DNA of 64,000 bases from Nocardia brasiliensis (lineage in GTDB: Bacteria > Actinomycetota > Actinomycetes > Mycobacteriales > Mycobacteriaceae). Shown in pieces: positions 42,476-53,734 of this stretch. The position numbers were made by a program, and so were the translations under genes. Position 1 is the first letter of the stretch, and every line of letters starts with the position of its first letter. Location of the stretch: assembly GCF_011801125.1 (NCBI RefSeq), contig NZ_CP046171.1:7750001-7814000 (forward strand), read 5' to 3'. The notes below the pieces were generated by a model, which was not told the origin of the DNA, did not search any database, and saw nothing but the letters and a program-made list of their open reading frames with translations.

Positions 42476-45400
42476 ATGGCAGTCGTCGATGACCGTGGAC
42501 ACGCGGACTTCCCGCCCGAGCCGCCCGGCGAGGACTTCGGCAGGCAGCCACCGCACGACATGGCGGCCGAGCAGTCCGTGCTCGGCGGCATGCTGCTGAG
42601 CAAGGACGCCATCGCCGACGTCATCGAGGTCATGCGGCCCGGCGACTTCTACCGTCCCGCGCATCAAGCCATCTACGACACCATCCTCGACCTGTACGGT
42701 CGCGGCGAACCCGCCGACCCGGTCACCGTCGCGGCCGGCCTGGACCGCCGCGGCGAACTCAAGCGCATCGGCGGCCCGCCCTACCTGGTCACGCTCACCC
42801 AGACCGTGCCGACCGCCGCCAACGCCAGCTACTACGCCGAGATCGTCGCCGAGAAGGCCATCCTGCGCCGCCTCGTCGAAGCGGGCACCCGCATCGTCCA
42901 ATACGGCTACGCCGGCGCCGACGGTCAAGACATCGCCGAGGTCGTCGACCGCGCCCAGGCCGAGGTCTACGAGGTCACCGAACGCCGCACCACCGAGGAC
43001 TTCCTCCCGCTCGAGGAACTGCTGCAACCCACGATGGACGAAATCGACTCCATCGCCAGCCGCGGCGGCATCTCGCTCGGCGTCCCCACCGGCTTCACCG
43101 AACTCGACGAGATCACCAACGGCCTGCACCCCGGCCAAATGATCATCGTCGCCGCCCGCCCCGGTGTAGGTAAGGCCCTCGCGCTCGACACCCCACTCCC
43201 GACCCCCACCGGCTGGACCACCATGGGCGCGGTCCGAGTCGGCGACGAACTGCTCGACGCCGCCGGACGCCCCACCCGCGTACTCGCCGCCACCGACGTC
43301 CTCACCGACCGCCCGTGCTACGAGGTCGAATTCTGCGACGGCACCGTCATCGTCGCCGACGAGGAGCACCAGTGGCTCACCGTGGCCCGCTCGCACGGCC
43401 CGCGGCCCGCGGTACGAACGACCGGCGACATCGTCCACAGCGTGCGCACCGCCGACGACGACGTGAACCACGCCGTGCCGGACACCGCGCGTGCCGAGGC
43501 CCGCTACATCGTGGACGTCCGCAAGATCGACACCGTCCCGGTTCGGTGCGTCGAGGTCGACAACAAAGACCATCTCTACCTCGCCGGGCAGACCATGGTG
43601 CCGACGCACAACTCGACCCTCGGTATGGACTTCATGCGGAGTTGCTCGATCAAGCATGGGTTGCCGAGCGTCATTTTCTCGCTGGAGATGAGTCGCACCG
43701 AGATCGTGATGCGTCTGCTGTCGGCGGAGGCGAAGATCAAGCTCGGTGATATGCGCGCGGGGCGGATGAGCGACGACGACTGGACCAAGCTCGCGCGGCG
43801 GATGAGCGAGATCAGTGAGGCGCCGCTGTTCGTCGACGACTCACCGAACCTCACCATGATGGAGATCCGGGCCAAGGCGCGTCGGCTCAAACAGCGCCAC
43901 GACCTGAAACTCGTTGTGGTGGACTACCTGCAGCTGATGACCTCCGGTAAAAAGGTCGAATCCCGCCAGCAGGAAGTCTCGGACTTCTCGCGAAACCTGA
44001 AGCTGCTCGCCAAAGAACTCGAAGTCCCCGTGGTCGCGATCAGTCAGCTGAACCGCGGCCCCGAACAGCGCACCGACAAACGCCCCATGGTGTCCGACCT
44101 TCGCGAGTCGGGTTGCTTGCCCGCGTCCACCCGTATTCTGCGCGCGGACAACGGCAGTGAGAGCACGCTCGGGGAGCTGCTGGCCAGCGGTGAGCAGCCA
44201 CTGGTGTGGTCACTGGACGAGCGGATGCGCATGGTGGCGCGTCCGATGGTGAAGGTCTTCCCGAGCGGACGCAAGGAAGTGTTCCGGTTGCGGCTCGCCT
44301 CCGGACGCGTTGTCGAGGCCACCGGCAACCATCCCTTCCTGACCGTCGACGGCTGGATCGCCCTGGAGAAGCTCGCCGTCGGCGACCGTCTCGCCTCGCC
44401 ACGCCAGGTACCGGAGCCGGTGCACACCACGCGGTTGCCGGACGCCGAGGTCGTCCTGCTGGCGCACATGATCGGTGACGGTTCCTGCGTCAAGCGCCAA
44501 CCCCTGCGCTACGCGAGCATCGACGAAGCGAACCTCGAAGCAGTCACCGAGGCCGCCACGCACTTCGGTGTCACCGCCGCACGCGACGACCACCCGGCCG
44601 CACGAGCGACCACCCTGCGTCTGCGCGCGCCGTACCGACTCACCCACGGCAAGCGCAACCCCATCGCGGCATGGCTCGACGAGCTCGGCCTCTTCGGGCT
44701 GCGCAGCTACGAGAAGTTCATCCCCAAGCCGATTTTCGAGCTGCCCAACGATCAGGTGGCATTGTTCCTGCGCCACCTGTGGGCCACCGACGGCTCGGTG
44801 CGCTGGGACGAAACCGACAGGCAAGCACGGGTCTACTACGCGTCGACCAGCCGGCGCCTGATCGACGACCTCGCACAGCTGCTGCTTCGCGTCGGCGTGC
44901 ACGGCCGGATCAAGCTGGTCCGCAAGACCGGCTATCGGGACTGCTGGCAGCTGAGCATCGACGGCTCCGAGAACCAGACCGTCTTCCTGCGCGATGTCGG
45001 CGTGCACGGCATGCGCGGGCAGGCCGCGGACGCGGCGCTGGCCGAACTGGCTCCGCTGACGCGCAATACCAATGTCGACACCGTCCCCAAGGAAGTCTGG
45101 AACCAAGTCCGTAGCCTGCTGGCCACCGAACAGATGACCCATCGAGACTTCTCGGCCGCGATGGGTTCGCGGTTCTGCGGATCCACGATGTGGAAGCGCT
45201 CCCCGAGCCGCTCGCGCCTGGCCCGGGTCGCCGCCGTCCTCGACGACGCCGATATCGACATGCTGGCCACCAATGACGTCTTCTGGGACCAGATCGTCGA
45301 AATCACCGCCCTCGGCGAGCAGGACGTCTACGACGGCACCGTACCCGGCACACATAACTTTGTGGCCCAAGGCATTTCGGTCCACAACAGCCTCGAACAG

Positions 45401-45571
45401 GACGCCGACATGGTCATCCTGCTGCACCGCCCCGACGCCTTCGAACGCGACGACCCGCGTGGCGGCGAAGCCGACCTCATTCTCGGCAAACACCGAAACG
45501 GCCCCACCGCCACCATCACCGTCGCCCACCAACTGCACCTCAGCCGCTTCGTAGACATGGCCCGCGGCTGA
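42476..45571 (+). CDS. dnaB: Replicative DNA helicase DnaB with two inteins
   Basis: 1031-residue precursor; removing two inteins leaves a normal 460-residue DnaB. The N-terminal primase-interacting domain (PPHDMAAEQSVLGGMLLSKDAIADVIE) is followed by the RecA-like domain with Walker A PGVGK-STLG, which intein 1 interrupts after the Lys. Walker B is LKLVVVDYLQLM. Then come LNRGPEQR and DLRESG-SLEQDADMVILLHR, which intein 2 interrupts before SLEQ. Replication thus depends on two splicing events. The stop codon at 45571 is 7 nt from the end of a Tn7-like transposon. Confidence 0.97.
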   Translation: MAVVDDRGHADFPPEPPGEDFGRQPPHDMAAEQSVLGGMLLSKDAIADVIEVMRPGDFYRPAHQAIYDTILDLYGRGEPADPVTVAAGLDRRGELKRIGGPPYLVTLTQTVPTAANASYYAEIVAEKAILRRLVEAGTRIVQYGYAGADGQDIAEVVDRAQAEVYEVTERRTTEDFLPLEELLQPTMDEIDSIASRGGISLGVPTGFTELDEITNGLHPGQMIIVAARPGVGKALALDTPLPTPTGWTTMGAVRVGDELLDAAGRPTRVLAATDVLTDRPCYEVEFCDGTVIVADEEHQWLTVARSHGPRPAVRTTGDIVHSVRTADDDVNHAVPDTARAEARYIVDVRKIDTVPVRCVEVDNKDHLYLAGQTMVPTHNSTLGMDFMRSCSIKHGLPSVIFSLEMSRTEIVMRLLSAEAKIKLGDMRAGRMSDDDWTKLARRMSEISEAPLFVDDSPNLTMMEIRAKARRLKQRHDLKLVVVDYLQLMTSGKKVESRQQEVSDFSRNLKLLAKELEVPVVAISQLNRGPEQRTDKRPMVSDLRESGCLPASTRILRADNGSESTLGELLASGEQPLVWSLDERMRMVARPMVKVFPSGRKEVFRLRLASGRVVEATGNHPFLTVDGWIALEKLAVGDRLASPRQVPEPVHTTRLPDAEVVLLAHMIGDGSCVKRQPLRYASIDEANLEAVTEAATHFGVTAARDDHPAARATTLRLRAPYRLTHGKRNPIAAWLDELGLFGLRSYEKFIPKPIFELPNDQVALFLRHLWATDGSVRWDETDRQARVYYASTSRRLIDDLAQLLLRVGVHGRIKLVRKTGYRDCWQLSIDGSENQTVFLRDVGVHGMRGQAADAALAELAPLTRNTNVDTVPKEVWNQVRSLLATEQMTHRDFSAAMGSRFCGSTMWKRSPSRSRLARVAAVLDDADIDMLATNDVFWDQIVEITALGEQDVYDGTVPGTHNFVAQGISVHNSLEQDADMVILLHRPDAFERDDPRGGEADLILGKHRNGPTATITVAHQLHLSRFVDMARG
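43175..43612 (+). other. DnaB intein 1: class 3 mini-intein in the Walker A loop
   Basis: Residues 234-379 (146 aa), from A-LALDTPLPTPTGW to MVPTHN, with Ser +1 (STLG). The first residue is Ala, not Cys/Ser/Thr. The class 3 WCT triplet is present: Trp in EEHQWLTV (block B), Cys in PVRCVEVDNKDHLY (block F) and Thr in VPTHN (block G). Class 3 inteins start splicing from the block F Cys (known mechanism). No homing endonuclease. It lies in the same Walker A site as the short M. leprae DnaB intein. Confidence 0.9.
44114..45388 (+). other. DnaB intein 2: LAGLIDADG-containing intein
   Basis: Residues 547-971 (425 aa), from CLPASTRIL to GISVHN, with Ser +1 (SLEQD). Class 1: Cys1, block B VVEATGNHPFLTVDGW with the TxxH-type His, C-terminal HN. 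Two LAGLIDADG-like motifs (LLAHMIGDGSC and LFLRHLWATDGSV), each retaining the GD/TD acidic residue, frame a homing endonuclease domain that may still be active. Insertion is in the conserved DnaB motif ESG/SLEQ, as in the M. tuberculosis DnaB intein. Confidence 0.92.
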
Positions 45572-45578
45572 TGTCATT

Positions 45579-45655
45579 TGTAGGGTCTCAAAAATCGTGG
45601 CGGAATCTCAAAAGGTTTGGCGGTGCCGTGGCGGATCCGCCACTTTTTTGAGATT
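45579..45655 (+). repeat. Left transposon end with three transposase-binding-type repeats
   Basis: The TIR occupies 45579-45601. Repeats of the type (A/G)TCTCAAAA-n4-TGGCGG occur at 45585-45603 and 45604-45623 (direct) and 45637-45655 (inverted). A perfect 16-bp palindrome centred on GGATCC spans 45628-45643. Multiple 20-bp sites at the ends are typical of TnsB-type transposases. Confidence 0.8.
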
Positions 45656-45720
45656 CCGCCCTCTGCTGACCGGCTCGTGCATGATCGTCGCCAGTTGCCG
45701 TCCACAGCAGGAGGATTCGG

Positions 45721-46482
45721 TTGGCGAGTCCGGCGATACCGAGAGGAAGCAGGGCTCGACGATCGGTCACTGCCGATGCCGTCGAGGTCGCGTTCCGCTG
45801 CGCTGCCGATCAATCCGAGAAGATCGTGCAACTTCCGGCGGCCAGCGCCGAGGTTTTGAGTGCGGCATCGCCGTGGCGGACTTTCCGTTGGCACCATGGT
45901 CAAAAGCATTATTCGGGGACGTACTGGTCAGCTACTCAACGTGGGCATGTCATCTACGAGTCTCGGTTGGAACTGGCGCGGCTGCTGTTCGCGGACTTTG
46001 ACCGATCCGTGCGCAGAGTCGTGGCTCAGCCCTTCCTGCTGAGGGTAGAGATCGGCGGCAAGCTGCGGCGCCACATCCCAGACTTCCTGTTGCTCACCGA
46101 CTCCGGACCTCTCGTGGTCGACGTGAAGCCAGCTGACCGACTGCAGAATCCGAAGGTCGCCTTCACCTTCGAATGGACTGAGGAGGTCCTTACTGCGCGA
46201 GGTTGGCGCTACGAGGTGTTCTCCGAGCCGGATGCTGTTGAGCTGGAGAATGTTCGTTTCTTGGCAGGCTACCGCCGTGATTGGTTGTTCGATCCCGATA
46301 TCTTGCGAGGGCTGCGGAGCTTGGTGACGACTCCGGTGACCATCGGCGATGTTCTCAGCTCGACCACGGAGGTCCCAGTATCAACGGCTCGTGCGGCGCT
46401 GATGCATTTGTTATGGAGGCAGGAGTTCGTCGTGAATATGTCCTCTCGATTGAGGTCGACCAGTCTCCTGTGGGTTGCGTAA
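45721..46482 (+). CDS. tnsA: TnsA-like endonuclease subunit
   Basis: 253 residues. TTG start at 45721 with a clean AGGAGG at 45709-45714. The restriction-endonuclease core is visible: YESRLELARLLFADFD (catalytic Glu), RHIPDFLLLTDSGPLVVDVKPADRL (PD...DxK catalytic signature). A C-terminal helical part (PVTIGDVLSS..VPVSTARAALMHLLWRQEFVV) resembles a winged helix. In Tn7, TnsA cuts the 5' ends of the transposon so that it is excised cleanly and inserted by cut-and-paste. The stop overlaps the tnsB ATG (TAATG). Confidence 0.82.
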   Translation: MASPAIPRGSRARRSVTADAVEVAFRCAADQSEKIVQLPAASAEVLSAASPWRTFRWHHGQKHYSGTYWSATQRGHVIYESRLELARLLFADFDRSVRRVVAQPFLLRVEIGGKLRRHIPDFLLLTDSGPLVVDVKPADRLQNPKVAFTFEWTEEVLTARGWRYEVFSEPDAVELENVRFLAGYRRDWLFDPDILRGLRSLVTTPVTIGDVLSSTTEVPVSTARAALMHLLWRQEFVVNMSSRLRSTSLLWVA

Positions 46483-48653
46483 TGGCCAGAGCCGCAACAC
46501 GTTTCGGGGTTGGAACGCGTCTGATCTACGACGGCGAGGCCGTTGAGATCATCGAAATCATCGCCACATCGGCCGGTAACGAGGTCGTCCTCCGATCTGA
46601 ATCGGCTGATCGGGCGGTGCGCCGGGTCGCGGTCCGAGAGCTGCTCACATCCGATGCTGTCCGAGTTATCCCAGCTGAGGTCGGCCCAGCAGCCACGGAC
46701 CAAGATGCCTCTGCAAGCGTCATTTTGGCCACCCTGAGCGAGGCGGAACGTCGTCGGTTGCTCGACCGTGCCGATCATGTTCGCGAGGTTCTCACCGGTT
46801 TCAAGTCCGGTTCCGCCGAGCTCGGCACCGCAAATGAGCCGCGGCCAGAGTATGACCCGGCATTGCCCCTGGCTTCCCGTTATGCGGCGAAAGCCGCCGA
46901 GATGAAGGTCGGCGTCCGGACATTGGAGCGATGGGCCGGTGATTACCGGAAGATCGGGGAAGCCGGGCTGTTGGAGAACAAGCCGAAAGGGCGAAACGCC
47001 TTCAGCAGCAACGACTCCCGCTGGGTCGAGATCGCCAGGGAAGTAATGGCTGAGCACACTGACCAGTCGAGGCCGTCACGGACGATGGTGATCGAACGAA
47101 CCAACGCCCGGGTTATCGCTCGGTTCGGTCCAGATGTGGTGAAGCCACCGTCGCGCGCGACGGCGTTCCGGGTGTTGGAAGAGTTGGAGCGGCAGAATCC
47201 GCTGTTCCGGTTGAGCACGAAGCGGAACCGGGATATAGCGGATCGTCCGGGTGGGGTTTACGGGAAGCTGCGGCCGACGCGTCCAGGTGAGTATCTGCTG
47301 ATGGACACCACGCGTTTGGATGTGTTCGCGTTGGACCCGGTGACGCTGCGCTGGATGCAGGCCGAGTTGACGGTCGCGATGGATTGGTACACCCGCTGCA
47401 TCTGCGGGGTCCGGATCACCCCGGTGTCGACGAAGTCGGTGGATGCAGCGGCGACGCTCTATCAGTCCTTCAGGCCACGCGCAGCAGGCAAAGACTGGCC
47501 CCGCTACGCGGTTTGGCCTGAGCACGGCATTCCGCGGTCGGTGCTCGTTGACGTCGATGCCGTTGACGGTCCGCTTACCGGCGCTGCTAATCCGGCGGTG
47601 GTGCCGGAGACGATCGTGATCGATCACGGCAAGATCTACATCTCGGAGCATTTGACGAGTGTGTGTCAGCGGATGGGGATTTCGATCCAGCCCGCCAGGC
47701 TGCGCACGGGCCGGGACAAAGGCCCGGTCGAGCGGTTCTTCCGCACCTTGAGGGAGGATCTGCTGCAGGCTCTGCCCGGTTACAAGGGACCCGATGTTCA
47801 TTCGCGCGGACTCGATCCGGAGTCCGAGGCCTTCTTCTACCTGGATGAGTTGGAAGCGATCATCCGCGAGTGGATCGCGGTGGTCTATCACCATCGCCCG
47901 CATGACAGCCTGGTCGACCCGCACGCCCTCACCTTGCGGATGTCGCCGGCGACGATGTTCGAGCACGGCATGGCCCGCGCCGGCTACATCGAAGTGCCCA
48001 GAGATCCAGACCTCGCCTACGAATTCCTGAAGGTCGAATGGCGCTCCATCCAGCACTACGGCATCGAGCTCGGCGGGCGCCGCTACAACGGGCCGGTCTT
48101 GGACGGCTTGCGCGGTGAAACCAGCCACTACACCGGGAAAGCCAAGGGCCGTTGGCCGATTCACTACGACCCCGACGACATCACTCGCACCTACTTCCGC
48201 CATTCGGAGAGCAACGAGTGGCACCCGTTGCGCTGGGAACACGCCCCGGCGGCGGACATGCCGTTCAGTGAGGAAGCGCTGACCTTCGCGCGCCGGCTAG
48301 CCGCATCGAAATACACCTACCCCGATGATCGGCTCGCTGTCGCGGATCTGCTCGAGCGCTGGAACCTGGGCCTGGGATCGTCGGTGGTCGAACGACGGAT
48401 GGCGCTGAGATTGTCCCGCGAGGCGACCTTCATCGACAACGCCGCCGAGGACTCGGTCAACACTCTGCCTTCGGTGGCGAAGGTCTTGGAGATCACCGCC
48501 GACAGCGTCGAGCCCGGCCCGACGACGTCCGAGCCGGAGCCGCAACAAGACGACCGCGAGGTCGGTGACGACGATCTGGACGACGAGTTCGGCGACGAGA
48601 CAGAGGATTTCGATGAGGACGACTTCTACGCCGACGCTTTGGAGGACGTGTGA
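46482..48653 (+). CDS. tnsB: TnsB-like DDE transposase
   Basis: 723 residues from the ATG at 46482, which overlaps the tnsA stop; a longer frame inside tnsA is rejected. Helical DNA-binding domains occupy about 120-230 (KAAEMKVGVRTLERWAGDYRKIGEAGL). The Mu/TnsB-type integrase core has Asp275 (LLMDTTRLDVF), Asp381 (IVIDHGKIY) and Glu417 (GPVERFFRTLRED), giving DD35E spacing. A beta-barrel domain (GGRRYNGPVLDG) and a very acidic C-terminal tail (DDLDDEFGDETEDFDEDDFYADAL) follow; that tail is where TnsB contacts TnsC. Stop overlaps the tnsC GTG by 4 nt. Confidence 0.92.
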   Translation: MARAATRFGVGTRLIYDGEAVEIIEIIATSAGNEVVLRSESADRAVRRVAVRELLTSDAVRVIPAEVGPAATDQDASASVILATLSEAERRRLLDRADHVREVLTGFKSGSAELGTANEPRPEYDPALPLASRYAAKAAEMKVGVRTLERWAGDYRKIGEAGLLENKPKGRNAFSSNDSRWVEIAREVMAEHTDQSRPSRTMVIERTNARVIARFGPDVVKPPSRATAFRVLEELERQNPLFRLSTKRNRDIADRPGGVYGKLRPTRPGEYLLMDTTRLDVFALDPVTLRWMQAELTVAMDWYTRCICGVRITPVSTKSVDAAATLYQSFRPRAAGKDWPRYAVWPEHGIPRSVLVDVDAVDGPLTGAANPAVVPETIVIDHGKIYISEHLTSVCQRMGISIQPARLRTGRDKGPVERFFRTLREDLLQALPGYKGPDVHSRGLDPESEAFFYLDELEAIIREWIAVVYHHRPHDSLVDPHALTLRMSPATMFEHGMARAGYIEVPRDPDLAYEFLKVEWRSIQHYGIELGGRRYNGPVLDGLRGETSHYTGKAKGRWPIHYDPDDITRTYFRHSESNEWHPLRWEHAPAADMPFSEEALTFARRLAASKYTYPDDRLAVADLLERWNLGLGSSVVERRMALRLSREATFIDNAAEDSVNTLPSVAKVLEITADSVEPGPTTSEPEPQQDDREVGDDDLDDEFGDETEDFDEDDFYADALEDV

Positions 48654-49774
48654 CCGCACCAGCTGATACTCCTGCTGAGGCTCGGCTGGACAACCTCACA
48701 TTGGCACGCAAGGAAGGCTGGAGCCGGTTCGTCAACATCCCGGCCCGGGTTCCACCGGAACCGTTGAGCCGCAAGGACCTCGCTGGGTTGGGCGATGAGG
48801 CGTTCGAGGCTTACAACCGGCGGCGCCGGGAGTGGCATGCCAACCTCGGGCCGATCAAGACGCCGCAGCTGACCGAGCTGCATGAAGACCTCTGGGATAT
48901 CGTCGACAGCAACCTTCACGACGGAGACAAAGCCAAGGGCGCTGTCGCTATCGATGCCTTCCCGGGTCTGGGCAAAACCACGTCGGTGCTGGCGTTCGCC
49001 AAGGAGTTCCACCGGCGCGAAATCCGGGCCGACGGACCGAAAACCCTTGACGGGCACGAGCGTTGGCCAGTCTGCCGAGTTGGATTGACCGGCAACACCG
49101 GGATGCTCGACTTTAACCGGGCGATGCTGTCGTTCTTCGCGCATCCTGGAGTGTCACGCGGGAACGCCGCACAGTTCGCGCATCGGGCCTTGGATTGTGT
49201 TCTGGCCTGCGAGACCCGCGTCCTTATAGTCGATGACCTGCATTTTCTTCGCTGGCGCAACACCTCCGGGATCGAGATCAGCAACCACTTCAAATACGTC
49301 GCCAACGAGTTCCCCGTCACGCTCATCTTCGTCGGTGTCGGTTTGGCCGCCCGCGGCCTGTTCTCCGAGGGGTCTTCCTACGAGGACGCGGTAATCGCCC
49401 AAACCGGCCGCCGCACGACCCGCCTGGACACACGCCCGTTCACCATCGACACCGCTGCTGGCCGCCGGGAATGGCGGCAGTTGCTGCTTGCCCTGGAACA
49501 GCGAATTGTGTTGGCAGATAAGCACCCTGGCATGGTCGCCGATGAGCTGTCCGACTATTTGTTCGCCCGCTCCACCGGACACATCGGATCGCTGATGACC
49601 CTGATCAACCGCGGCTGCCAGCGCGCGGTCCGCACCGGCGTCGAACGTCTCGATCGGGACCTGCTGGATCAAGTGAAGAACGACGCCGCCTCGGAAAAGG
49701 CCCGCCTGGAATTGGAGGCCGCGTTCGAGTCCGGCAGGCTCACCACCCGGCCTCACGCGCGCAAGGCCGGATGA
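48650..49774 (+). CDS. tnsC: TnsC/TniB-like AAA+ ATPase
   Basis: 374 residues. GTG at 48650 with GGAGG 5 nt upstream. Walker A is FPGLGKTTS (Lys109). Walker B is RVLIVDDLHFLRW. A sensor-like LIFVGVGLAARGLF and the TniB-type RRTTRLDTRPFTID and ARSTGHIGSLMTLINRGCQRAV follow. TnsC links the target selector TniQ to the transposase and enforces target immunity. It overlaps both neighbours by 4 nt, so the stoichiometry of the complex is set by coupling. Confidence 0.9.
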   Translation: MTAPADTPAEARLDNLTLARKEGWSRFVNIPARVPPEPLSRKDLAGLGDEAFEAYNRRRREWHANLGPIKTPQLTELHEDLWDIVDSNLHDGDKAKGAVAIDAFPGLGKTTSVLAFAKEFHRREIRADGPKTLDGHERWPVCRVGLTGNTGMLDFNRAMLSFFAHPGVSRGNAAQFAHRALDCVLACETRVLIVDDLHFLRWRNTSGIEISNHFKYVANEFPVTLIFVGVGLAARGLFSEGSSYEDAVIAQTGRRTTRLDTRPFTIDTAAGRREWRQLLLALEQRIVLADKHPGMVADELSDYLFARSTGHIGSLMTLINRGCQRAVRTGVERLDRDLLDQVKNDAASEKARLELEAAFESGRLTTRPHARKAG

Positions 49775-52389
49775 GCCAGATCCGGACGCTGCCCATCCGG
49801 GTTGCACCGATACCCGGTGAAGCGCTCGATTCGTGGTTGGAGGCGCTGGCGGCACGCAGCTACACCACCTGGGCCGACCTGCTTACCTCGATCGGACTGA
49901 TCCCAGCCGAAGGCCCACGCACCAACGGCTGGATTGCCCAATTGCGCCCTGATGAAGCCGCAGCCGTCTCCCACGCCACCGGCATAGAAGTCTCCGACCT
50001 GCACGCCATGACCCTAGCCCGCTTCGACCGCGCCGCCCTGCGGATCAGGGCCGCCACCCGGACGGTCGACCGAACGTTTCCTTGGGGCCGCGGTCGCGGC
50101 TCCCGATATTGCCCGGACTGCTTGGCCGACAGCGGAGGAAGCTGGCAGCTGACATGGCGGCTGGGCTGGTCTTTCGCCTGCCTGCATCACGCCTGTCTAC
50201 TCGCTGATGAGTGCCCTGGCTGCGGCAAAAGGCAACGGCTGCGCCCGTTCTCCGGCGAGGTGGTCCCTCGACCCGGATCCTGCGCCAATCCAGGCGACGG
50301 CGTCTCGGGTCTGTCACCAACCCGATGCGGAGCCGACCTGACCACCGCCGAGGTCGCCAGATTTCCCGCCGATCACCCAGTCCTCACAGCGCAGCAGAAC
50401 ATCTACGACATCATCGACTCCAGCACAACAGAATTCGGTATCTACACCACCAATCCGCAACCAGCGATCACGGCGCTCGCCGATATCAGAGCCGTCGCCG
50501 GCCGCATCCTGGCCTACGCCACCGCCGAAGACCTTTCCCGCATCCTTTCCTCGGATCTGCTTGCCGCACACCGCAACATCCCGGTCTCCCAACTCGGCCA
50601 GGCGACCGCACGCCGGCCCACTCCGAAACCAGGACTGGCAGCACCCGCTCATGCCGCCACCGCTGCGGTCGGTGTTACCGCCGCGCTGACCGTGATCGCC
50701 GCGCCGGATATCGCCACAGGCGGAGAAGCGCTGCGCTGGTTGGTTACCAAGACTCGCGACGGTGGCAGAGCTGTCCGAGCAAGCAATATCGGCTGGGGCC
50801 AACAGATCAGCCCGACACTTTCCGCGGTCCAACTCGCGGCCCTGGCCCCCCTGTTCAAACCCGTCGATCAACTGCGCCACCGAACCCCGATGACGATTCC
50901 CCGACACCCGAGGCCAAGAGCGACACGCATCGACCATCTCGTCCGCCGAGTTCCGACGATGCTCTGGCCCACATGGTCACTACGGCTGGCAGTGCCGGGC
51001 ACTCACCAACGCATCCTTCGCCCCGTCGCTTCGGCCACACTACTGCTCGTCGGAACCCGCCTTCACCGAGCCGACGCGGTGACCCTGCTCAACAGCCCGA
51101 TCGCCGCGAGCACGGTCTCACGGGTGTTGCAGCTGATGACAAACCATGGAGCGCAGAGCATCCTGCTGGCGCTGATCCGGATGGCAGACCACCTCGCCGA
51201 CAACGACATCACCATCGACTATCAGCGGCGCCGACTCCTCGACTACACCGCCCTGCTCCCCGATAAGACCTGGCGGCAGATATGCCGAGCCACAGGCACC
51301 GCTGGCCCCTTCTCGAGCCGCGCACGAGTCGCGCGAAGCTTCCTATTCGAACGAATCAGCGGCCTACCTTCCGGTGACGCACCAGAGGCATTGGATGACA
51401 ACGAGTTCCGCACGAAGACCGCGGACTTCCCGAAACACCTCACCCCCGAACTGGCTGCGGCGTTGCATCACCATGCCGCTGAATTCCTTGCCGACCATCA
51501 CATCTACGACGAGCCCGTCACTTGGCAGCCGCCGACAGACCTACTCGATGACCTCCCGTTGCCCAGTCTCGACCCCGCCGCCGTCGATATCGGAGAACTG
51601 CATCGGCTGATTCGCCGAGAGGATCACTCACCCGGCGCGGCAGCCAATGCCCTGGGCACCACACTCGACATCATCCGGCACCTGCTGGAAGAGCGGCCTG
51701 CCCCGACGCGGCCGCCCACCACCGCGGACCAAGCCAGAGCTCACGGCCACGCCTACATGACGGCCAGAAATCAGCTTCCGCGCGATGTGCTCATCGATCT
51801 CTATCAACGTCAGCGGATCAGTTTGCGCGACATAGCCGAGCGTGTCGGAGTCAGCCGGCCGACCCTCGCGAGCCTGGCCCGTGACTACGAGATCCCACTG
51901 CGCGAACCACATCCGCACGCCAAGATCCACATCGACCGCGACTGGCTCTACGACCGATACGTCAACCAGCGCAGAACACTGTCCGAACTCGCCCGCGAAA
52001 CCGGCATGAGCACCGCCAACATGGCCCGCTGGGCCAAACGCTACGACATCCTGATGCGGCCAAGAGGCGGGCCCAGCCACTCCGCGAACCTCGACGCGAA
52101 CACCATGGCAGCGACAGCACCGCTCAACCTGCAGCCAGCACTCACCACGATCGGAGGCTGGGAACGGTTGCGCCGCTTCGCCGCCGCAACTCGCTACCCC
52201 ACACTCACTGCCGCCGCGAAAGGCCTCGGCATCAACCAAATCACCCTCACCAGCCAGGTCAACCGGCTCGAACGAGAACTCGGTGGCCCATTGCTCAACC
52301 GCGCCGAACGCAACCACCCCATGACCCTCACACCACTCGGCGAGGAAATCCTGGCAGCGATCAACGTTGCTGCTGACCAACGACCTTGA
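49771..52389 (+). CDS. tniQ: TniQ/TnsD-like target selector with C-terminal HTH units
   Basis: 872 residues, far longer than a minimal TniQ. The N-terminal TniQ domain (LPIRVAPIPGEALDSWLEALAARSYTTWADLL) leads to zinc-finger clusters (YCPDCLADSGGSWQLTWRLGWSFACLHHACLLADECPGCGKR). About 670-760 hold two resolvase/IS-type HTH units (ISLRDIAERVGVSRPTLASLARDYEI and RTLSELARETGMSTANMARWAKRYDI). The last 70 residues form a LysR-type winged helix (TLTAAAKGLGINQITLTSQVNRLERELGGPLL). Such length and DNA-binding modules indicate sequence-specific choice of a chromosomal site, as in TnsD. Confidence 0.88.
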   Translation: MSQIRTLPIRVAPIPGEALDSWLEALAARSYTTWADLLTSIGLIPAEGPRTNGWIAQLRPDEAAAVSHATGIEVSDLHAMTLARFDRAALRIRAATRTVDRTFPWGRGRGSRYCPDCLADSGGSWQLTWRLGWSFACLHHACLLADECPGCGKRQRLRPFSGEVVPRPGSCANPGDGVSGLSPTRCGADLTTAEVARFPADHPVLTAQQNIYDIIDSSTTEFGIYTTNPQPAITALADIRAVAGRILAYATAEDLSRILSSDLLAAHRNIPVSQLGQATARRPTPKPGLAAPAHAATAAVGVTAALTVIAAPDIATGGEALRWLVTKTRDGGRAVRASNIGWGQQISPTLSAVQLAALAPLFKPVDQLRHRTPMTIPRHPRPRATRIDHLVRRVPTMLWPTWSLRLAVPGTHQRILRPVASATLLLVGTRLHRADAVTLLNSPIAASTVSRVLQLMTNHGAQSILLALIRMADHLADNDITIDYQRRRLLDYTALLPDKTWRQICRATGTAGPFSSRARVARSFLFERISGLPSGDAPEALDDNEFRTKTADFPKHLTPELAAALHHHAAEFLADHHIYDEPVTWQPPTDLLDDLPLPSLDPAAVDIGELHRLIRREDHSPGAAANALGTTLDIIRHLLEERPAPTRPPTTADQARAHGHAYMTARNQLPRDVLIDLYQRQRISLRDIAERVGVSRPTLASLARDYEIPLREPHPHAKIHIDRDWLYDRYVNQRRTLSELARETGMSTANMARWAKRYDILMRPRGGPSHSANLDANTMAATAPLNLQPALTTIGGWERLRRFAAATRYPTLTAAAKGLGINQITLTSQVNRLERELGGPLLNRAERNHPMTLTPLGEEILAAINVAADQRP

Positions 52390-52546
52390 ATCAGAACGGG
52401 ACACGTCGGTGGTTGATGTTCGCCAGTCATGTTGCGGTACAGCATGATTCGGGCGACTACCGCAACAAGTGCTCTGCGATCGGCACCTGTTGACGGCGTG
52501 GAGATACGTTCCGCTGCGGACGACCGGGAAGGTTACGATTGTCTGC

Positions 52547-53425
52547 ATGGCTGCTGTGATCGACTACACCGTCGCCGGACCGATGACCAGCCTGCACAGC
52601 GTCGATCCGACGGCGTTAGAGCAGATTCCAACCGACATCGTCGACATCTGCCGTCTTGCACCCAGTCTGGTCGTTCAGCCTCACGACGCCCAAACCCTCG
52701 GCTTGTCGGCAGAGCGGTTCTCGGAGAATCAGATTCGTCCAGCCGCTGAACTGGTCGATGCCCTTCTGGCGCTGAATCCGGCCCCGTTGACCATCCGGAG
52801 AGAGCCGGGCCAACGCGTGATCGGCACCTGCCGTCACTTCGCGGTGATCAGCTGCGCATTGCTGCGTTACCGGGGGATCGAGTCCCGCGTCCGCTGCGGG
52901 TTCGCCACCTACTTCCAGCAGGGACAGGGCCTCGACCACTGGATCACCGAGTATTGGCATGACGCTGAACGCCGATGGGTGCGCATCGATGCCGAGATCC
53001 TCGACCAGTCGATCCTGGCACACCCGGAAAACCTTCGGAACGGTGAGTTCCTCAGCGGCGCTGAAGCATGGATAGCCTTCCGAGAGGGGAGCATCGACGC
53101 TGCTACGTTCGGCGTTCACGGGACCGCTAACTGGGGACCGGCCGAGATCCGCGGCAACGCGATCAAGGATCTCGCCGCGCTGAACAAGGTCGAGATGCTT
53201 CCGTGGGACGAGTGGGGGCGAATGACCGCGTCATATAACGGCGAGACCGGCCCGGACTACGACGAGCTCCTCGACACCATCGCCGCGACCTGCACCGGCG
53301 ACGATCTTGCCGCGATCGCCGAACTCTACGCCCACGACGAACTTCGAGTGCCTCCCGAACTCATCAGCTCAAGACACGTACCCGGACAAGAACCCGCACC
53401 CGCCGAAGAAATGCCATCGAACTGA
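52547..53425 (+). CDS. Transglutaminase-like protein (transposon cargo)
   Basis: 292 residues from the ATG at 52547. The cysteine-protease-like triad is visible: Cys in VIGTCRHFAVISCALLRYRGIESRVRCGFATYF, His in GLDHWITEYWHD, Asp in RWVRIDAEILDQ. There is no signal peptide or membrane segment. It is the only non-transposition gene of the element, 157 nt after tniQ, and its stop codon lies inside the first right-end repeat. The role is unknown; a host-beneficial or defence function is only a guess. Confidence 0.75.
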   Translation: MAAVIDYTVAGPMTSLHSVDPTALEQIPTDIVDICRLAPSLVVQPHDAQTLGLSAERFSENQIRPAAELVDALLALNPAPLTIRREPGQRVIGTCRHFAVISCALLRYRGIESRVRCGFATYFQQGQGLDHWITEYWHDAERRWVRIDAEILDQSILAHPENLRNGEFLSGAEAWIAFREGSIDAATFGVHGTANWGPAEIRGNAIKDLAALNKVEMLPWDEWGRMTASYNGETGPDYDELLDTIAATCTGDDLAAIAELYAHDELRVPPELISSRHVPGQEPAPAEEMPSN

Positions 53426-53512
53426 GACAACAGACTCTCGCCACAACGTGAGACAAACCGGAAACGACCAGGTCAATCGAGTGGCAAATGCCACGGATTT
53501 TGAGACCCTACA
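53413..53512 (+). repeat. Right transposon end with three transposase-binding-type repeats
   Basis: Read towards the interior, repeats GTCTCA...TGGC occur at 53490-53507 (within the TIR, 53490-53512), 53439-53456 and 53413-53430. They are all in one orientation and more widely spaced than at the left end, the asymmetry expected for Tn7-like ends. The innermost repeat overlaps the cargo gene stop codon. Confidence 0.78.
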
Positions 53513-53640
53513 CATAAAGTTTTGGCCACTCGATGGTCACTCGGCCAGAGTTTTGTGCCCTTTCTTGCTGATGTATGAGCGTCGCCGGTTGCCGCTGGCG
53601 ACAGGAGGCACCGGGCGACGAGGGCGTTCAGTGCCGTGGG
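53513..53640 (+). mobile_element. Probable remnant of a second, related Tn7-like element
   Basis: Just outside the right end, 53567-53610 (GCTGATGTATGAGCGTCGCC, GTTGCCG, ACAGGAGG) closely follows the leader of tnsA at 45672-45714 (GCTCGTGCATGATCGTCGCC, GTTGCCG, AGCAGGAGG). After the AGGAGG, a short frame could be a decayed tnsA start. GCCACTCGAT at 53525-53534 mirrors ATCGAGTGGC at 53476-53485. It may be the left end of an older element at the same site. Confidence 0.5.
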
Positions 53641-53734
53641 ATCAGTGATCGAAGCTCATCGACGCATCGAATCGGGTCGCACCACAGGCAAACTCGTGCT
53701 CCGCGTCGGCGATCGCTGACTATTCCCGCCGAGG

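Follow-up and report, generated by a model that had tools for sequence, protein, structure and literature searches.

Tn7 lies beside glmS with its tnsA end inward, and Tn7-like elements that use protein selectors to insert at conserved sites are already known. In a review, the Tn7 selector TnsD is described as reading the 3' coding end of glmS, and glmS, tRNA genes and parE are given as known sites of Tn7-like elements with protein selectors; comM is a further attachment site in the literature. Benler et al. (2021; PMC8649781) describe a clade 2 of Tn7-like transposons that is dominated by Actinobacteria and of which no member has been experimentally characterized. One CRISPR-associated system also has its att site at a replication-related gene, and the selectors of att sites treated in the main text of Faure et al. 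(2023; PMC10293859) consist of a modular TniQ core with a variable C-terminal part.

The window analyzed here, a stretch of 64,000 nucleotides from Nocardia brasiliensis (NZ_CP046171.1, positions 7,750,001 to 7,814,000), contains an intact Tn7-like element, very probably a cut-and-paste transposon belonging to an actinobacterial family that, judging by the sequence, uses the 3' coding end of dnaB as its attachment site in the chromosome. Like Tn7, the element combines TnsA, TnsB and TnsC with a TniQ-domain selector, is inserted just 3' of a conserved gene and has TGT...ACA ends, and a 5-bp duplication is seen in its relatives. It differs from Tn7 in its address gene, which is dnaB and not glmS, and in its selector, the C-terminal part of which matches HTH and LysR-type HTH families without the PF15978 domain. 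The selector follows the modular layout described by Faure et al., and both core and address gene differ from those of the CRISPR-associated system. The element perhaps belongs to clade 2 of Benler et al., with defence cargo as a point of likeness in the accessible text of that study. In the same text the string 'dnab' has 0 occurrences, neither dnaB nor actinobacter- occurs in the main text of Faure et al. (2023), and a search of the full-text literature (without supplements, preprints and most subscription papers) returned no description of a dnaB attachment site. What appears to be new is the address gene dnaB and one case of a swapped selector. An actinobacterial Tn7-like family thereby gains a defined chromosomal address at an essential replication gene. 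The site beside dnaB in Streptomyces, Nocardia and mycobacteria can explain a recurrent island position, which in some relatives is occupied by defence-like genes, and a tool for site-specific insertion in GC-rich hosts could be built on it.

The transposon in the window

The dnaB gene (42476..45571, plus strand; Pfam DnaB, DnaB_C, Intein_splicing and LAGLIDADG_3) encodes the replicative helicase and contains two inteins. One is small and gives no homing-endonuclease match (about aa 234-379), and the other bears LAGLIDADG (about aa 547-971); the borders of both were read from the sequence. The inteins were ruled out as the target or cause of the insertion: some occupied dnaB genes (L040, L057) are a single uninterrupted match and have no intein. 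The stop codon (45569-45571) is followed by 7 nt and then by the element end at 45579, with the tnsA end facing dnaB.

The intact element covers positions 45579-53512 (7,934 bp), and its core genes are arranged in the order tnsA-tnsB-tnsC-tniQ. A repeat search located the terminal inverted repeats at 45579-45601 (tnsA side, plus strand) and 53490-53512 (distal side, minus strand), which start with TGTAGGGTCTCAAAA and are complementary at 21 of 23 bases; it also pairs the element ends as an inverted repeat of 26 nt at 88%. Internal repeats consisting of GGCGGAATCTCAAAA and an inverted copy (45599..45660, strand unassigned; 15 nt at 100%, TCTCA positions) are putative TnsB binding sites. Three of the features by which Tn7-like elements are recognized are found together here: tnsA, tnsB, tnsC and tniQ/tnsD in a single element (by Pfam, NCBIfam and gene order), TGT-ended inverted repeats with several TnsB-site-like repeats of the TCTCA type at both ends (three per end), and site-specific insertion 3' of a conserved gene with the tnsA end inward.

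All core genes are on the plus strand. The endonuclease gene tnsA (45721..46482; Pfam PF08722) matches NCBIfam NF033179 (TnsA_like_Actin) at 248 bits, the cut-off being 110; the match opens at residue 42, and the start may lie later than 45721. The DDE transposase gene tnsB (46482..48653) matches Mu-transpos_C, with rve below the cut-off, and has a possible ATG start at 46482 that overlaps the tnsA stop; its D-35-E spacing was counted by hand on the translation (IDHGK...VERFF). The AAA+ ATPase gene tnsC (48650..49774; AAA_22, TniB) shows the motifs GLGKT and VDDLH when read by eye, and tniQ/tnsD (49771..52389; PF06527, HTH_1) encodes a target selector of 872 aa. The junctions between the four genes all overlap (TAATG, GTGA, ATGA). 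The preliminary description had claimed the 23-bp repeat pair, the four core genes with coupled starts and a DD35E transposase, and the insertion 7 nt beyond the dnaB stop with the tnsA end inward; all of this is borne out by the repeats, the profile matches, the junctions and spacing, and the coordinates 45571 and 45579.

TniQ consists of a core with invariant Cys/His, two HTH-like segments at about aa 655-785, and a C-terminal LysR-type winged HTH at aa 797-858 that was recognized by profile. An hmmscan of the protein returned PF06527 and HTH-type families and no PF15978 (TnsD C-terminal domain), which glmS-type selectors have; TniQ is TnsD-like in role only. We know of no earlier description of such a selector architecture. 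The Pfam matches of the five genes that fill the element include neither TnsE nor cas families. A transglutaminase-like gene (52469..53425, plus strand; 318 aa, PF01841) is the sole cargo gene, and a PADLOC search of its product gave no match. Frames 3' of tniQ in relatives gave matches to Wadjet JetC/JetD, to a type I methyltransferase and to a type IIG restriction enzyme (L045:15780-20400, L037:17284-18795, L067:12280-15999); such defence matches were obtained for four of six proteins tested, and their membership in the elements is putative, the far ends not having been located in these three loci. The closest TnsC relative of the window, 82% identical, is from Nocardia brasiliensis, and the 7.95-Mb single-contig genome contains one full copy of TniQ, the other match being weak and confined to the C-terminal HTH.

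No 5-bp target duplication surrounds the element, the flanks of which read TCATT and CATAA. Among 16 hand-matched end pairs, the window included, a perfect duplication was found in nine, two at dnaB (L040, L146) and seven elsewhere (L055, L056, L069, L072, L075, L076, L077). It is missing in the window, in both elements of L044, in L048 and L054, in the second element of L039 and in L174, where 4 of 5 bases match. Counting first elements with both ends found, the duplication is perfect in 2 of 7 at dnaB and in 7 of 7 elsewhere. Directly outside the distal end, positions 53515-53657 (plus strand) align locally to the element's own tnsA end from about base 32, with a score of 56 against 40 for the best of 300 single-base shuffles. 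This stretch is probably what is left of an earlier, decayed relative of the element, right beside which the present copy inserted, and the window's duplication is probably missing because of it; more generally, repeated use and decay of one site may have led to the lost duplications. The absent duplication and the abutting remnant are also what would be seen if the window copy were itself a dead remnant and the word 'complete' misleading. We regard this as rather unlikely, since the four core frames are open with coupled starts, the catalytic motifs are recognizable and both ends are intact.

Related elements and the role of TniQ

A search of a contig collection with TniQ found 23 related loci. 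In 13 of them, from Streptomyces, Nocardia, Mycobacterium/Mycolicibacterium, Pseudonocardiaceae and a MAG, tblastn places dnaB just upstream; tnsA is situated between dnaB and tniQ in 11 of these, and L051 and L054 have no visible tnsABC. At the remaining 10 loci the contig stops within the tns genes, before dnaB could appear. TniQ matches (E<=1e-10) were present in 32 of 301 family genomes, and 36 stretches around them were mapped, one being a locus already in the contig set. Where TniQ is roughly 40% identical or more, dnaB adjoins the tnsA end in L057, L059-L064, L066, L067, L071 and the window, and does not in L055, L056, L065, L068 and L069; around L080, a TniQ fragment with 43-45% identity, there is no dnaB within the 15 kb examined. 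L058 and L074 are parts of a single contig with tandem elements, which stops short of the dnaB position, and tandem elements 5 bp apart occur in L044 and L039. The more distant matches in the family include L070 and L078 at dnaB and L082 near dnaB in reversed orientation, and no dnaB was found in the stretches around L072, L075-L077, L081, L083, L085, L086, L088 and L089.

At the level of the class, 26 of 394 genomes had a TniQ match. After four already covered were left out, flanks were examined for 15 of the remaining 22: five are at dnaB (L165, L172, L173, L174, L176), two are cut short (L169, L178), and eight have no dnaB in the stretch (L167, L168, L170, L171, L175, L177, L179, L180). The contig of L169 carries an element end at dnaB about 16 kb beyond the tns genes. 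A motif scan of the same 394 genomes, which used the element tip and the dnaB end only, gave 18 matches in 17 genomes and 0 with the reversed pattern as control. Sixteen matches in 15 genomes, including that of the window, sit at dnaB 3' ends, among them L181, L189 and L195 with less typical tips; L187 and L197 were discarded as chance matches that are not dnaB sites. The main clade of a 56-row TnsC tree has a support of 100/98 and 31 members, namely 21 dnaB rows, 5 from elsewhere and 5 unresolved ones; L082 is labelled dnaB in this tree, yet falls outside the clade.

The search for related tnsABC-tniQ genes and their flanks that the preliminary description had proposed thus showed elements inserted again and again close to the dnaB stop, well inside the tens of bases anticipated: at the 40 sites listed, the element begins 1-14 nt downstream of the stop codon. 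The opposite outcome, related elements at scattered sites, is not what the main clade shows as a whole, although five of its rows, in two sub-lineages (L055/L056 and L065/L068/L069), are located elsewhere. In L055/L056 the stop of a long secreted-protein-like frame, named from its translation, precedes the element by 17 nt, and L065/L068/L069 share no consistent gene end at the insertion. In a sister TniQ subfamily (about 30% identical; perfect 5-bp duplications), translations read by eye suggest a peptidase/transglycosylase-like frame as the neighbour of L072/L075/L077, which are inserted 20-23 nt beyond its stop, and an NlpC-like frame as that of L076, inserted 26 nt beyond; these cell-wall-hydrolase-like target genes look like plasmid conjugation genes. 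Two further arrangements were observed. The dnaB-side element of L165 has two TniQ genes, one adjoining dnaB and one after tnsC, perhaps a sign of two target pathways. In L082 (9196-12032), a distant Tn7-like element has its tniQ end, not its tnsA end, toward the 3' end of dnaB, at a distance of about 245 nt.

The dnaB address appears to travel with TniQ, because the element L078, which has a foreign core and a main-clade TniQ, is at dnaB, and its core relative L085 is not. TnsA, TnsB and TnsC of L078 are 46%, 57% and 42% identical to those of L085, versus 28, 27 and 26% to those of the window, and a tree that unites its TnsC with the main clade is rejected by the AU test (p 2e-11; 13 rows vs 9). 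L078 has two TniQs, one 43% like that of L085 and another that adjoins dnaB. The latter groups with the TniQ of L051 (SH-aLRT 100), and both nest in a main TniQ clade (16 rows; SH-aLRT 99 in a quick tree, no bootstrap) with 11 dnaB rows including these two, four other rows (L055, L056, L065, L068) and one second TniQ. L078 and L051 have the end type TGTCGAGATGCA in common and each lie 8 nt past the dnaB stop. The same end type in L085 is located beside an integrase-like frame, with no dnaB in the 546 nt outside the end, and only the L085-type TniQ was found there. The swap case is mainly that of L078, L051 being known from its TniQ only, and it makes the target-reading part of TniQ directly testable. 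The main TniQ clade also holds rows that are not at dnaB, and TniQ ancestry alone therefore does not fix the site.

We consider it improbable that another element gene, or the core, sets the dnaB address. In favour of such a reading, the TniQs of L066/L067 lack the LysR-type HTH and are still at dnaB, and main-clade TniQs occur elsewhere in L055/L056 and L065/L068. It is countered by L078, which is at dnaB with a core distant in TnsA, TnsB and TnsC and, of the four proteins compared, closely shares only TniQ with the window.

An alignment of 24 TniQ sequences points to the part of the protein that may read dnaB. Over the tandem HTHs (aa 655-785), five dnaB TniQs that match the window protein at 46-49% overall share 48-56% identity with it, as opposed to 41-42% for L055/L056 (overall 48%) and 33-36% for L065/L068 (overall 44%). 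Among the dnaB rows, L067 (44% in this region, 44% overall), L048 (38%, 41%) and L070 (29%, 35%) fit less clearly. The segment GMSTANMARWAK is exact or has 1-3 changes in most dnaB TniQs of the alignment, is more altered in L048 and L070, and is replaced in L055/L056 and L065/L068. The second HTH is by this correlation the likely reader of dnaB. The LysR-type HTH was rejected as the sole reader, being absent from L066/L067 at dnaB and present in L055/L056 elsewhere. A wider reading, for and against which we place equal weight, is that the dnaB 3' end serves as a common actinobacterial dock for at least two Tn7 cores by way of a portable TniQ, with the second (STANMARWAK-type) HTH as main reader and with changes in the HTH re-addressing the element, for example to genes of conjugative plasmids.

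Distance to the dnaB coding end

The insertion distance was compared over 41 hand-picked occupied sites, one per genome or record (two in G485), from which L149 dropped out for want of a match; this set contains few scars and no site with the different end type found in L051/L078. From the conserved Met codon near the DnaB end to the element, the 40 sites average 23.9 nt (SD 2.0, range 18-30), and from the dnaB stop 9.1 nt (SD 2.6, range 1-14), in a set that is partly composed of near-identical elements and thus not of fully independent rows, and in which 8 of 40 rows come from the motif scan alone, whose pattern confines the distance from the Met codon to 13-31. In seven DnaBs that are one codon shorter, the distance from the stop is 12.4 nt versus 8.5 in 31 others, and that from the Met codon 24.4 versus 23.5. 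L181, with a DnaB three codons longer, has distances of 1 and 25 nt, respectively. L165 runs contrary to this pattern (one codon longer; 12 nt from the stop, 30 from the Met codon). The insertion distance thus seems mostly to follow the dnaB coding end and not the stop codon.

This bears on a further alternative, in which the element would recognize intergenic DNA or a terminator 3' of dnaB as its attachment sequence. The insertion point itself is intergenic and L165 departs from the coding-end distance, but no common motif is discernible by eye downstream of dnaB across hosts, and the distance from the Met codon is mostly held where the stop codon shifts; we judge the intergenic site to be highly improbable. 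The dnaB 3' coding end, as claimed in the preliminary description, is supported by the 40 sites, by independent insertions and by the distance mostly following the coding end. The proposed attachment region in the window comprises the last 60 nt of dnaB and the 7-nt spacer (45512..45578, plus strand), its putative borders being based on the coding-end distance over these sites.

We posit that TniQ, as a TnsD-type selector, would bind the last dnaB codons through its C-terminal HTH segments, and that dnaB-bound TniQ would recruit TnsC, which would call TnsA and TnsB sitting at the element ends. Insertion would take place with the tnsA end toward dnaB, some 24 bp downstream of the conserved Met codon close to the DnaB end; this point is past the reading frame, so dnaB would remain intact. 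We infer, rather than observe, the direct binding of TniQ to DNA, the identity of the HTH that reads dnaB and the present activity of the window copy.

Independent insertions and unoccupied sites

In genus g30, the elements of L059-L063 are 99.9-100% identical over their first 4,000 nt (2,266 nt in L063, where tnsB is interrupted). For the dnaB genes next to them, identity across 1,200 nt is 90.1-94.8%, and the bases between stop and element differ in every case (8, 10, 9, 8 and 14 nt). Because near-identical elements thus adjoin divergent dnaB genes with differing flanking bases, we read them as recent independent insertions, a spread between species with a fresh insertion at the same spot each time. 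In G485, the same element end occurs twice, on separate contigs and next to different dnaB genes. All 59 same-genus genomes contain the dnaB end, and of the 30 loci that were read, five clearly carry an element end (L113, which is that of the window, and L115-L118), four have scars resembling broken ends (L098, L100, L112, L119) and 19 have no element end recognizable by eye, with L094 and L101 set aside. It is scarcely credible that the position beside dnaB was merely inherited from one ancestral insertion passed on vertically, without targeting; some relatives do share element and position, for example L066/L067 with identical TnsC, but the divergent dnaB genes and flanks, the two dnaB genes of G485 and the 19 dnaB ends without an element all stand against it.

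Empty sites in relatives, which the preliminary description had anticipated, are represented by these 19 dnaB ends, but the exact empty junction of the window, dnaB joined to the distal sigma-factor gene, was not found among the 148 same-genus genomes searched, its own included. In G713, no dnaB is present within the 9 kb examined around the sigma-factor gene. About 3.9 kb separates dnaB from this gene in G727 and G773, and the stretch in G727 ends in a Tn7-like distal end with no recognizable end at dnaB. In G316, a gene with an 84% match to the window's distal neighbour follows dnaB with a mini-element in between (L146:18226-19446; 1,221 bp). The mini-element adjoins dnaB, has both Tn7-like ends, a perfect ACACG duplication and no tns matches, and is probably a non-autonomous passenger of the same family.

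A different rearrangement was observed in G194 (L153:1597-9949), where a dnaB frame lacks the second intein and a fragment of that intein with the DnaB C-terminus is found 8 kb further on. Translations read by eye identify ArsR-like, oxidoreductase and transporter frames between the two pieces, and it looks as if a different kind of element has replaced the 3' end of this dnaB gene.
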